From a virus: a stretch of 35,740 nt of DNA. Shown piece by piece: positions 443 to 34,565 of the stretch; position 1 is the stretch's first letter, and every line of letters begins with the position of its first letter. Location: the IMG/VR virus record IMGVR_UViG_3300027749_000280, positions 1 to 35,740 of that record; one strand, written 5' to 3'. Position numbers and translations under genes: made by a program. The notes beneath the pieces are model-generated. The model was not told the DNA's origin and ran no database searches. It saw only the letters and a program-made list of their open reading frames with translations.

Positions 443-539
443 AATAGAAGCTGGCAAGCCTGTTAAGCAGGCTGTCGCTATTGGCTATTCGGTTAAGCGT
501 GAAGCTGAGAAAGACAAAAAAGCAAAGCCTAAAAAGTGA
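387..539 (+). CDS. Small basic phage protein (50 aa), unknown function
   Basis: An ATG at 387 opens a 50-codon frame ending at TGA 537-539, overlapping the end of the previous gene by 56 bases in another frame. The protein begins MPLIKSMTPKALKQNIKAEI and continues with a GKPVKQAVAIGYSVKR segment and a Lys-rich tail. This matches a pattern often seen in tiny phage proteins (K-S-x-K-A-x-x-x-N, then G-K-P-x-K-Q-A-x-A-I-x-x-S-x-x-R), possibly DUF6496-like. Its stop overlaps the next GTG start (GTGA), and its position in the operon supports reality. Function unknown; DNA binding is conceivable from the charge. Confidence 0.65.
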   Translation: MPLIKSMTPKALKQNIKAEIEAGKPVKQAVAIGYSVKREAEKDKKAKPKK

Positions 540-1306
540 AAATTACCCAAAAGAAAGTCACAGAACTAATCCCTTATGTAAAAAACAGCCGCACCCACAG
601 CGATGAGCAAGTGGCACAAATAGCGGCAAGCATTAAGGAATTTGGCTGGACTAACCCAATACTGGTGGACGGACAGAACGGCATAATTGCTGGTCATGGT
701 CGCTTATTAGCCGCACGCAAGTTAGGTTATGAAAATATACCTACTATCGAACTTGCAAATTTAACAGAAACACAAAAAAAAGCTTACATAATTGCTGACA
801 ATAGACTGGCGCTTAATGCTGGTTGGGACAATGAGATGTTGGCATTAGAGCTTGGTGAACTTGGCGATTTAGGTTTTGATCTTGATTTAACTGGATTTGC
901 AGCTGATGAAATTGCTGAATTACTTTCACCTGAAGATGATGAGGACGATAGCAAATATAGTAAAAAAATTGATGCACCGGTTTATGAGCCAACTGGGGAT
1001 TGTCCACCAATAGTAGAGCTTTACGATAAAGTTAAATACGAAGAACTTACAGCCAAAATTTACCAAGATGACAGCATTGACTCAGAGATAAAAGATTTTT
1101 TGCTTGCGGCGGCGGCAAGGCACATTCGTTTCGACTTTGAACAAATTGCAGAATTTTATGCCCACGCACCACCTGACTTGCAACAACTAATGGAAGACAG
1201 TGCATTGGTAATTGTTGACTTTGATAAAGCAATTGCCAGTGGTTATGTAAAGCTTTCGCAAGCTATAAGTGAAATTTACACTAGTGAAAAAGGTCAAGCA
1301 GAGTGA
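536..1306 (+). CDS. ParB-fold (ParB/Srx nuclease-like) domain protein
   Basis: 256 residues from a GTG start coupled to the previous stop. Residues 1-100 form a ParB/sulfiredoxin-fold domain: NSRTHSDEQVAQIAASI helix, FGWTNPILVD strand, the box-II-like loop GIIAGHGR (residues 49-56) and ADNRLALNAGW near 92-102. In phages this domain is often fused to a DNA methyltransferase, but none follows here. Instead there is an acidic linker (DEDDS) and a helical C-terminal domain of about 110 residues (YEPTGDCPP, LLAAAARHIRF, IAEFYAHA) whose function I do not know. The gene overlaps the glycosyltransferase gene by GTGA. ParB domains recur beside phage base-modification genes, so a DNA-modification role is inferred, not shown. 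Confidence 0.75.
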   Translation: MKITQKKVTELIPYVKNSRTHSDEQVAQIAASIKEFGWTNPILVDGQNGIIAGHGRLLAARKLGYENIPTIELANLTETQKKAYIIADNRLALNAGWDNEMLALELGELGDLGFDLDLTGFAADEIAELLSPEDDEDDSKYSKKIDAPVYEPTGDCPPIVELYDKVKYEELTAKIYQDDSIDSEIKDFLLAAAARHIRFDFEQIAEFYAHAPPDLQQLMEDSALVIVDFDKAIASGYVKLSQAISEIYTSEKGQAE

Positions 1307-2208
1307 GCAAAAGAAATTTTGCGGTGTTCATTTTGACACATGGCAGAGCCGATACGGTATATACATTTAAAACTTTACGGCAACAAGGATACACAGGAAA
1401 AATATACCTTTTATGCGATGACGAAGATAAGCAAATTGCTAAATATAAAAATTTGTATGGCACAGATTCGGTAATAGTATTTAATAAGCAAAAAGCAATT
1501 GATGCCACTGATAGCGGAGATAACTTTAAAAAGCGCAACAGTGTAGTGTATGCAAGAAACATTAATTTTGAAATTGCAGCCGACCTTGGATTGACACATT
1601 TTTGGCAATTAGATGACGATTACACAAGGTTTGACTATTCACTCAATGAGGAAATGCAGTACACAACCTCAAACAACAAAATTGGCAAGCTGGATGACGT
1701 GCTTGCGGTAATGGTAGATTTTTTAGAAACAACACCTTTTCACTCTATTGCATTTGCACAAGGTGGCGACTTTATTGGTGGTGAAGGTTGCACGTTGCTA
1801 AGCAGGATGCGGAAAGATGAAATTTACCGAAAAGTAATGAATTCGTTTTTGTTTAGAGTTGATCGCCCAGTGCAATTTATGGGCAGAATTAATGAAGATG
1901 TAAATTTGTATGTTGAGTGGGGTCGCAGGGGCATATTGTTTATGACTTCACCACAGCTTAGATTGCAACAGGTTGTGACGCAACAAAATGCTGGTGGATT
2001 AACAGAAATTTACCTTGAACTTGGAACATATACAAAGTCTTTTTACACGGTAATGTATGCACCATCATGTGTCAAAATTTCAGAAGTGGGGACAACTGAT
2101 AGGCGCATACATCATCAAGTCATGTGGAAATATGCAGTGCCAAAAATACTAGATGAGTCACACCGTAAGCCAAGAGTATTGTCACGCATTACAAACACAG
2201 TAAAATAA
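1303..2208 (+). CDS. TET-associated glycosyltransferase-like (TAGT) protein, putative DNA base hypermodification
   Basis: 301 residues, GTG start overlapping the ParB stop. The sequence fits a GT-A-like glycosyltransferase of the TAGT type known beside phage TET/JBP dioxygenases: FILTHGRADTV (9-19), GYTGKIYLLCDDED (29-42), VFNK (59-62), YARNINFEIA (83-92), an LDDDY DxD-like metal/nucleotide-sugar motif (103-107), NEDVN (197-201), TQQNAGG (226-232) and GTYTKSFY (241-248). Known members glycosylate 5-hydroxymethyl pyrimidines in phage DNA. No TET enzyme, hydroxymethylase or cytosine methyltransferase is visible here, so the substrate is unknown. A T-rich stretch with a weak hairpin follows before terS. 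Fold and family assigned from motifs recalled, not from a search. Confidence 0.72.
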   Translation: MSKRNFAVFILTHGRADTVYTFKTLRQQGYTGKIYLLCDDEDKQIAKYKNLYGTDSVIVFNKQKAIDATDSGDNFKKRNSVVYARNINFEIAADLGLTHFWQLDDDYTRFDYSLNEEMQYTTSNNKIGKLDDVLAVMVDFLETTPFHSIAFAQGGDFIGGEGCTLLSRMRKDEIYRKVMNSFLFRVDRPVQFMGRINEDVNLYVEWGRRGILFMTSPQLRLQQVVTQQNAGGLTEIYLELGTYTKSFYTVMYAPSCVKISEVGTTDRRIHHQVMWKYAVPKILDESHRKPRVLSRITNTVK

Positions 2209-2848: not shown

Positions 2849-4123
2849 TTGTCTGAAGTAGCAAGCGCCATAGCCAACGCTGAGTTTCCAATCAAGCTAC
2901 AGGGCTTGTTTCAGCCATCACGCTACAAAGTAGCTTACGGCGGCAGGGGTGGCGCTAAGTCTTGGGGTATAGCTAGGGCGTTGTTGATCAAGGGTGCTAA
3001 ACAAACATTACGAATACTTTGTGCGCGAGAATTCCAAACCAGCATAAGAGATTCAGTACATAAATTACTTTGTGATCAAATTGAAAATCTTGGTTTACAT
3101 GGTTTTTATGAAATAACCCAAAACAGCATCAGAGGCAGAAATGGCACAGAGTTTGCATTTGCCGGCTTAAAAAACAACATTGCCAACATAAAATCATTTG
3201 AGGGTGTAGACATTTGCTGGGTTGAAGAAGCACAAACAACAAGCCGATTAAGCTGGAATATTTTAATTCCCACTATAAGAAAACAAGGCAGCGAGATTTG
3301 GATTTCATTTAATCCTGAATTGGAAACAGATGAAACTTACCAACGTTTTGTAGTTAACCCTCCTGCTGATTGCATACAAATAAGAATTAATTGGTCAGAT
3401 AACCCTTGGTTTCCTGAAACCCTTAAGCTAGAAAAGGATGCGCTTAAGAATCGCGACATGGAAGCATATAACCAAGTTTGGGAGGGTTTATGCCGCCAAT
3501 CAGTGGATGGCGCTATTTTTGCCAAGGAACTACAACAGGCTGAAGTAGAGGGTAGGCTAACCCGTGTTGCTTATGATGCTACAAAGCCCGTCCACGCCAT
3601 CTTTGACCTTGGTTGGTCTGATAGCACCTCCATTTGGTTCTTGCAGTTTGTGGGCATGGAAACCCGCCTTATTCGGTACATTGAGGATAGCCAAAAGACC
3701 ATGACCCATTATTTGGCAACTATGCAAACCTTTGGTTATGTGTACGACACGATATGGCTACCGCATGACGCTGAGAATCAAACATTGGCGGCGGCTGGGC
3801 GGTCAATCAATGACATTGTTAGGGCGGCAGGCTACAAGACTCAAATCCTGCCAAGAGTGCCAATCCTTGATTCAATCAACGCCGCTAGGACAATATTCCC
3901 AAGTTGTTGGTTTGACAGGGAACACGCCGCAGATGGCATAAACTGCCTGCGCCATTATCGGTATGAGGTTGACCAAGCCACAGGGCAGTTCAGCCGCAAC
4001 CCATTACATGATCACTTTTCGCACGGGGCTGACGCATTTCGCTATATTGCCCTGATGATTCAAGACACACCCAAGCGCAAGCCAAAAGCACAGGTTGCAA
4101 TGGCTGGCGGTTGGATGGGATAA
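2849..4123 (+). CDS. terL: Terminase large subunit
   Basis: 424 residues. The start is TTG at 2849: AAGGAAATGAT precedes it with the same spacing as AAGGAAATAAC before the coat-protein ATG, while the ATG at 2844 hits a stop within six codons. The ATPase domain has Walker A GGRGGAKS (31-38), Walker B with catalytic acids VDICWVEEA (120-128) and coupling motif SFNPE near 153. The RNase H-like nuclease domain begins around FDLGWSDSTS, with LPHDAE and HGADAFRY as later acidic motifs. TerL pumps DNA into the prohead and cuts it. The length is normal for the Terminase_3/PBSX-type family. Confidence 0.95.
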   Translation: MSEVASAIANAEFPIKLQGLFQPSRYKVAYGGRGGAKSWGIARALLIKGAKQTLRILCAREFQTSIRDSVHKLLCDQIENLGLHGFYEITQNSIRGRNGTEFAFAGLKNNIANIKSFEGVDICWVEEAQTTSRLSWNILIPTIRKQGSEIWISFNPELETDETYQRFVVNPPADCIQIRINWSDNPWFPETLKLEKDALKNRDMEAYNQVWEGLCRQSVDGAIFAKELQQAEVEGRLTRVAYDATKPVHAIFDLGWSDSTSIWFLQFVGMETRLIRYIEDSQKTMTHYLATMQTFGYVYDTIWLPHDAENQTLAAAGRSINDIVRAAGYKTQILPRVPILDSINAARTIFPSCWFDREHAADGINCLRHYRYEVDQATGQFSRNPLHDHFSHGADAFRYIALMIQDTPKRKPKAQVAMAGGWMG

Positions 4124-34103: not shown

Positions 34104-34327
34104 TGGCTAGTTGCGCTGACTGTAAATTCTTTTTGAATGCCCAGATCATGGGCAGTTGCCGCCGTTATCCACAGACTATTAACAGGCACATGAACGATTG
34201 GTGTGGTGAACACGCATTAATTGAACAAGTAATGGTTAATTTACCTGTGTATGACATTATGACTGACACTATTTCTGAGCCTAAAAAGCGCGGAAGAAAG
34301 CCAAAAAATGATCAAGCCATTGCATGA
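34103..34327 (+). CDS. Small Cys-rich protein with AT-hook-like tail
   Basis: 74 residues. Potential zinc ligands occur in CADCKFF (Cys4, Cys7), GSCRRYP (Cys19) and DWCGEH (Cys34, His37). The C-terminus has KKRGRKPKN, close to the AT-hook RGRP core, so minor-groove DNA binding is plausible. Overlaps the GroES-like gene by 20 bases. The Cys-rich pattern occurs in many small phage proteins of unknown function. Confidence 0.62.
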   Translation: MASCADCKFFLNAQIMGSCRRYPQTINRHMNDWCGEHALIEQVMVNLPVYDIMTDTISEPKKRGRKPKNDQAIA

Positions 34328-34565
34328 CCGTGTAGTTGTTCGCCCAAATGTTCGCAAGTTGTCAGACATTATTTATGTCAACAACAAGGAATCATTTAAC
34401 GAGGGAACAGTTGTTGCGGTTGGCCCAAAGGTTGATCAGACTCAGGTTGGTGACTTCATTAAGTATGGCAACGGAGATTATTTAAATTGGCCTGTTCAGC
34501 ACATTGATGGGCAGGATTATCAAATCATTCAAGAAGCCGACATTTGTGCGGTAGTGGAGGCGTAA
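34308..34565 (+). CDS. groES: GroES-like co-chaperonin
   Basis: 85 residues, slightly shorter than bacterial GroES (about 97). The Cpn10 start IKPLHDRVVVRPNVRKLSD, then the mobile-loop region with DIIYVN in place of the usual GGIVL-type tripeptide, GTVVAVGP, VGDFIKYGNG and the end IQEADICAVVE. Phage co-chaperonins (gp31, CocO types) replace or adapt host GroES for folding the coat protein. Mobile-loop changes are typical of phage versions. It lies in a block of small genes close to virion-type genes. Confidence 0.88.
   Translation: MIKPLHDRVVVRPNVRKLSDIIYVNNKESFNEGTVVAVGPKVDQTQVGDFIKYGNGDYLNWPVQHIDGQDYQIIQEADICAVVEA

Follow-up and report, generated by a model that had tools for sequence, protein, structure and literature searches.

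The DNA analysed here (the window, a viral contig of 35,740 nucleotides, IMG/VR record IMGVR_UViG_3300027749_000280) carries on its plus strand two coupled genes, read in the sequence exactly where an earlier note on this stretch had placed them. The first (536–1306) encodes a 256-residue protein consisting of an N-terminal ParB/sulfiredoxin-fold domain, ParB_N (residues ~1–130, 536–925), and an acidic, all-helical C-terminal domain, CTD (residues ~138–256, ~119 amino acids, 947–1303), and the second (1303–2208) a 301-residue GT-A glycosyltransferase of the TAGT family. On the same strand a 50-residue open reading frame (387–539) precedes the pair, and the genes for the terminase small subunit (terS, 2263–2697, recognised by its position and its conservation before terL in relatives) and large subunit (terL, 2849–4123) follow it. 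The stop of the short reading frame overlaps the ParB start at 536 by four base pairs (GTGA), and an identical overlap at 1303 joins the ParB stop to the GTG start of the TAGT gene, so that the three are probably co-translated. Both genes of the pair are under strong purifying selection, with dN/dS values against the related locus L010 of ~0.03 for TAGT and ~0.11 for ParB-CTD. Elsewhere in the window are a phage-encoded chaperonin 10 (GroES) homologue (34308–34565) and two similar small-protein genes, one at each contig end (45–257 and 35008–35448), which are either tandem paralogues or a near-terminal duplication.

The glycosyltransferase and its constant partner

The 301-residue protein scores 121.5 bits (E=6e-35) in a profile search against the Pfam TAGT family PF20691, far above the cut-off of 27.5, in agreement with the earlier assignment to this group, and every one of the motifs then listed (THGRAD, YARN, LDDDY, NEDVN, TQ-NAGG, GTY-KSFY) is found in it. 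Its AlphaFold2 model is confident (pLDDT 92.1, pTM 0.89) and adopts a GT-A fold with a conserved acidic metal-binding motif (D104-D106); Foldseek matches it to GT-A enzymes resembling GT2 and GT25, with E-values down to 4.8e-6. A PDB sequence search retrieved phage gp54 matches only, judged to be due to chance. At several loci in bacterial genomes the gene occurs in tandem arrays of two or three copies, which could build short glycans. The family was reportedly named by Iyer et al. in 2013, and its name derives from a genomic association with TET/JBP dioxygenases.

Its companion is a ParB protein in its N-terminal part alone. The 256-residue protein passes the Pfam ParB_N model narrowly (27.5 bits against a cut-off of 26.3, residues 18–81) and fails the NCBI ParB family model TIGR00180 (30.1 bits against 58.45), the C-terminal part of a ParB partition protein being replaced by the TAGT-linked CTD. 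In the AlphaFold2 model (mean pLDDT 87) the N-terminal part, matched by Foldseek to ParB, Noc and sulfiredoxin, is followed by a low-confidence linker (residues ~131–150) and the separate helical CTD, for which pLDDT is 92–97 over most of residues 151–210 and lower toward the C-terminal end. Pfam returned no match above cut-off for the CTD, and PHROGs gave nothing beyond the ParB-like PHROG 620, which covers residues 1–242; weak matches from a PDB sequence search were unrelated. Conservation within the domain is high, with Y141, P148, Y150, R195, H196, A205, Y208, Q216, E220, L224 and D228 invariant or nearly so; Y150 and Y208 are invariant in 57 sequences, R195, Q216, E220 and D228 also count as invariant, and H196 is retained in 98%.

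The linkage between CTD and TAGT is obligate in both directions. When relatives were gathered from viral contigs, phage records and bacterial genomes by TAGT sequence alone, a CTD lay within 3 kb of all 131 TAGT reading frames of this type (those at contig edges being left out), in most cases overlapping; conversely, an independent scan by CTD patterns alone, pooled with other loci, gave 229 CTD reading frames, 228 of them followed by a TAGT and the remaining one cut by a contig end, although the counts of 131 and 228 include some overlapping loci. After clustering of the TAGTs at 70% identity, 96 of 99 clusters had a CTD upstream, and of the other three, one lies at a contig edge and two are additional members of a tandem array. 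Free-standing CTDs, <165 residues long and lacking ParB_N, number at least 25; one is encoded by pv27, a T4-like Vibrio phage of 191 kb. ParB_N is thus optional and the CTD obligate. Thus the true partner is the CTD and not ParB, which bears out the earlier suggestion that the C-terminal domain is an unrecognised partner and makes the label ‘orphan’, applied to the pair at the time, a misnomer. A natural CTD-TAGT fusion, sought for structure prediction, was not found.

The two partners differ in charge. The CTD is uniformly very acidic (mean charge -11.4, pI 4.5; per residue more acidic than ~98% of background phage reading frames from the same loci), while TAGT is basic (mean charge +7.0, pI 9.05), if only moderately so, its charge per residue lying near the 75th percentile of that background. 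This would make DNA binding by the CTD unlikely and binding to TAGT, as an adaptor, more likely, an argument that is no more than suggestive because the charges of the two proteins do not covary across pairs. Such acidity, together with translation just ahead of TAGT, would also suit a decoy or inhibitor that, instead of activating TAGT, keeps it away from host DNA until packaging; this we consider highly improbable, given that the invariant R195, Y150, Q216, E220 and D228 and the nearly invariant H196 exceed what a decoy would need, and that fusion to ParB_N suggests targeting.

The ParB_N slot before terS

The window and phages such as L111, L113, L114 and L136 share the flanks of the cassette and differ in its middle. 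The DNA of ParB_N and terL is ~70–84% identical between the window and these phages (76–84% for ParB_N in relatives with other cassettes, 70–80% for terL). A census of loci picked by ParB_N similarity found an N6/N4 methyltransferase, either fused or adjacent, in 37, the CTD in 24, Mom in six (five from the seed search, and L159), a C5 methyltransferase in three, another methyltransferase in three, a different glycosyltransferase with TET in one and a TAGT of another kind, the PSKGR type, in one. Pfam confirmed representative occupants as N6_N4_Mtase (L111, L120), C5 methylase (L115), TAGT (L152), Mom (L127, L159) and Tet_JBP (L113). Judging from the sequences compared, the ParB_N locus ahead of terS is a slot whose DNA-modification genes are interchangeable. 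That ParBc proteins lie near DNA-modifying enzymes had already been noted, their function being given as unknown (PMC12783734). Mom-family (PF25680) genes lie in the slot of two relatives, at L127:7853-8572 and L159:7838-8632, and in a third relative one follows a CTD-TAGT pair at L077:3648-4106.

This exchange with DNA-modifying enzymes is the chief reason for thinking that CTD-TAGT, too, modifies DNA, although the argument does not extend to pairs with a standalone CTD, which lie outside the ParB_N/terminase slot. A serious rival is a protein acceptor, either the CTD itself (at the invariant Tyr150 or Tyr208, for example) or another phage protein that the CTD presents. The CTD is, besides TAGT, the sole constant product across haloarchaeal, Nocardia, Lactobacillus, E. 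coli and T4-like Vibrio phages, and several of the top Foldseek matches of TAGT are protein glycosyltransferases, collagen galactosyltransferase and SunS being among the matches; these weigh against a DNA acceptor, yet GT-A folds are promiscuous. Homology to GREB1 points the same way, the NCBI product name of TAGT in many E. coli genomes being ‘GREB1-related protein’; GREB1, a homologue of the TAGT family, is reported to glycosylate a protein. Against this stand the slot exchange itself, the basic character of TAGT and the precedent of the T6 TAGT, which works on DNA-bound glucose (PMC13216743), and on balance we regard a protein acceptor as unlikely.

Neighbouring genes offer some indication of the sugars involved. 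In other phages the pair is accompanied by genes for cytidylyltransferase-like proteins (in some cases fused to a histidine phosphatase), for NDP-sugar epimerases (one a GalE above the NCBIfam cut-off) and for UDP-galactopyranose mutase, as well as by radical SAM genes and genes for small SAM methyltransferases. Sugar-nucleotide genes are neighbours of 23 of 180 distinct CTD-TAGT loci, a count biased upward because the seed proteins were drawn from this group, as compared with 0/58 TET, 2/55 PSKGR-type TAGT and 0/46 other ParB_N loci. Donor sugars probably vary between these phages, and as no sugar-nucleotide gene was seen in the window, a host sugar nucleotide would be its donor. Sugar-nucleotide genes of these kinds are likewise found in the surface-glycan clusters of phages (PMC7824862), so that the cassette might instead use phage-supplied nucleotide sugars to alter a host surface glycan, causing seroconversion or superinfection exclusion. 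We hold this to be very unlikely, since neither TAGT nor ParB-CTD has a membrane segment, no membrane partner gene was seen, and both the ParB_N fusion and the slot exchange with DNA methyltransferases count against it. The radical SAM genes adjoin TAGT at L007:10868-11830 and L016:896-1852, and at L260, L264, L265, L269, L271, L274, L275 and L282, most of these loci belonging to gut-anaerobe genomes and one to a near relative of the window; they may possibly provide an oxygen-free route to a handle or to a change in the sugar.

Absence of a known source of hydroxymethylated bases

The earlier note had reported no TET/JBP dioxygenase, hydroxymethylase or C5-methyltransferase in what it took for a nearly complete genome. 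The absence holds: profile searches of the window found no TET, C5-methyltransferase or thymidylate-synthase-family enzyme, nor was any methyltransferase present among the non-structural proteins scanned. The near-completeness is less certain, as the contig is not closed and its ends show no overlap, but this is compensated by the agreement of five complete relatives. Indeed, the complete genomes of NTR1, HHTV-2, jlb1, c5 and pv27 contain no TET, C5-methyltransferase or hydroxymethylase, and hence no known source of hydroxymethylated bases. The TET profile PF12851, which may miss divergent dioxygenases, matched neither the window and 47 further TAGT-bearing records (0/48) nor 17 whole host genomes carrying the cassette; it did match the record of L113, the positive control, and gave no match in 398 Pseudomonadota genomes tried as a control. 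A C5-methyltransferase occurs in 3/48 records; among these three, L152 does not belong to the CTD loci. The thymidylate-synthase profile PF00303 is absent from the window and 46 other records, its sole match being a pv27 protein encoded beside a DHFR gene; this protein carries what we take to be the Asn motif of thymidylate synthases rather than the Asp of hydroxymethylases, and looks like a true thymidylate synthase.

The same picture emerges from the side of TET. Among 82 loci related to the L113 TET, 61 of them with ParB_N, none contains the CTD or this TAGT, and none of 227 CTD loci contains a TET (one has a C5-methyltransferase relative). By gene content, TET and CTD-TAGT are mutually exclusive in the loci sampled. 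The premise that TAGT enzymes as a family act only after a TET/JBP dioxygenase finds no support on two counts, as this clade is never found with TET in the sample and the pathway of the T6 TAGT is itself TET-free, being based on a dCMP hydroxymethylase (PMC13216743).

These results bear on the conventional alternative, a DNA glycosyltransferase acting on 5-hydroxymethyl-pyrimidines or other handles provided by the host or by phage genes that are unsequenced or unrecognised. It accords with the best-characterised DNA glycosyltransferases, which use 5-hydroxymethylcytosine or 5-hydroxycytosine (PMC13390438), and the open ends of the window leave room for such genes. Complete relatives of up to 191 kb without TET, C5-methyltransferase or hydroxymethylase, and the mutual exclusion of TET and CTD, argue otherwise, and the 17 host genomes without a TET match disfavour a host-made 5-hydroxymethyl base, which the note had entertained. 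We judge this conventional route to be quite improbable.

Proposed mechanism and relation to known systems

Taken together, the evidence makes it probable that CTD and TAGT constitute a two-part, TET-independent glycosylation module acting on the phage's own DNA. TAGT would move a sugar from a nucleotide sugar to this DNA, in the window phage probably late, just before packaging. The acidic helical CTD would probably serve as a dedicated adaptor that binds the basic TAGT and activates or positions it, while ParB_N, where fused, would probably bring the pair to DNA, as it presumably does for the methyltransferases, Mom and TET of sister phages. The acceptor would not be 5-hydroxymethylcytosine or -uracil from any TET or hydroxymethylase findable here, and may be an unmodified base, or a handle formed by an unrecognised activity, possibly that of the CTD-TAGT pair itself; the benefit to the phage would presumably lie in evading restriction. 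A more far-reaching proposal, which we put forward tentatively, is that CTD and TAGT suffice for DNA glycosylation on a base that bears no hydroxymethyl handle. The CTD would then be a new adaptor, or a new domain that makes the handle, and the system would be common among phages of bacteria and archaea as well as among E. coli prophages. If DNA is indeed glycosylated without a hydroxymethyl base, this would be a new route to modified DNA, with uses in biotechnology and anti-restriction.

The pair is widespread, occurring in phages or prophages of Lactobacillus, Nocardia, Vibrio, Haloarcula, Escherichia, Salmonella, Porphyromonas, Bacteroides, Veillonella, Desulfovibrio, Spirosoma and others. 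Among 5,426 complete E. coli genomes, 867 (~16%) contain 80% or more of the TAGT gene, and 887 contain that share of the whole cassette. In the Rac prophage of K-12, ynaK (L450:13878-14141, corresponding to NC_000913.3 1425377-1425640) is what is left of this ParB_N gene, truncated and adjacent to trkG, with an identity of 99.3% over 2,431 bp, trkG included; K-12 has lost CTD and TAGT by deletion, in contrast to hundreds of other E. coli genomes in which they are intact. Presence in so many complete genomes and loss from K-12 bring a clean test within reach of an ordinary laboratory. The literature searched, to which Iyer et al. 2013 and Pyle et al. 2024 did not belong, yielded no description of the CTD, of its obligate linkage with TAGT or of the way TET is excluded, and no data on DNA modification in HHTV-2 or L. 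delbrueckii phages. Of 753 phage genomes in a 2026 study, 288 had solitary TAGT homologues, which were termed potential novel transferases (PMC13216743); the present analysis gives one large TAGT clade a constant partner, shows that it excludes TET and places it in a slot otherwise occupied by DNA-modifying enzymes.

Comparison with known systems places this clade among, and apart from, several relatives. The T6 TAGT, a beta-glucosyl-HMC alpha-glucosyltransferase that adds a second glucose to glucosylated hydroxymethylcytosine in DNA (PMC13216743, PMC13390438), likewise scores above the PF20691 cut-off and shares the GT-A fold and the R..DD..ED..GG motifs, yet it works after a dCMP hydroxymethylase and an alpha-glucosyltransferase and has no CTD, whereas the present clade has the CTD and neither enzyme, and hhalign detects no profile-level similarity between the two. 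The ParB_N-GT-TET cassette of L113, a relative of the window (L113:8527-10627), occupies the same slot between ParB_N and terS and includes a dioxygenase that passes PF12851; it lacks the CTD, and its 237-residue glycosyltransferase-like protein is a different one, matching neither PF20691 nor any other Pfam glycosyltransferase family. TAGTs of the PSKGR type (Aeromonas phages 65 and Aeh1, Vibrio phage Kuja, L152) also match PF20691 and have a small linked or fused domain of their own, but this domain is unrelated in sequence, and none of 36 non-edge genes has a CTD; ending in ITxKT..WFP, it is found at the ParB C-terminus (L152:7288-7417) or fused to the TAGT N-terminus (P0004 residues 1–100, P0005 residues 1–95). 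Finally, the ParB-methyltransferase fusions of PHROG 498 have a nearly identical ParB_N in the same position before terS, and differ in their effector, an N6/N4 DNA methyltransferase in place of CTD and TAGT.
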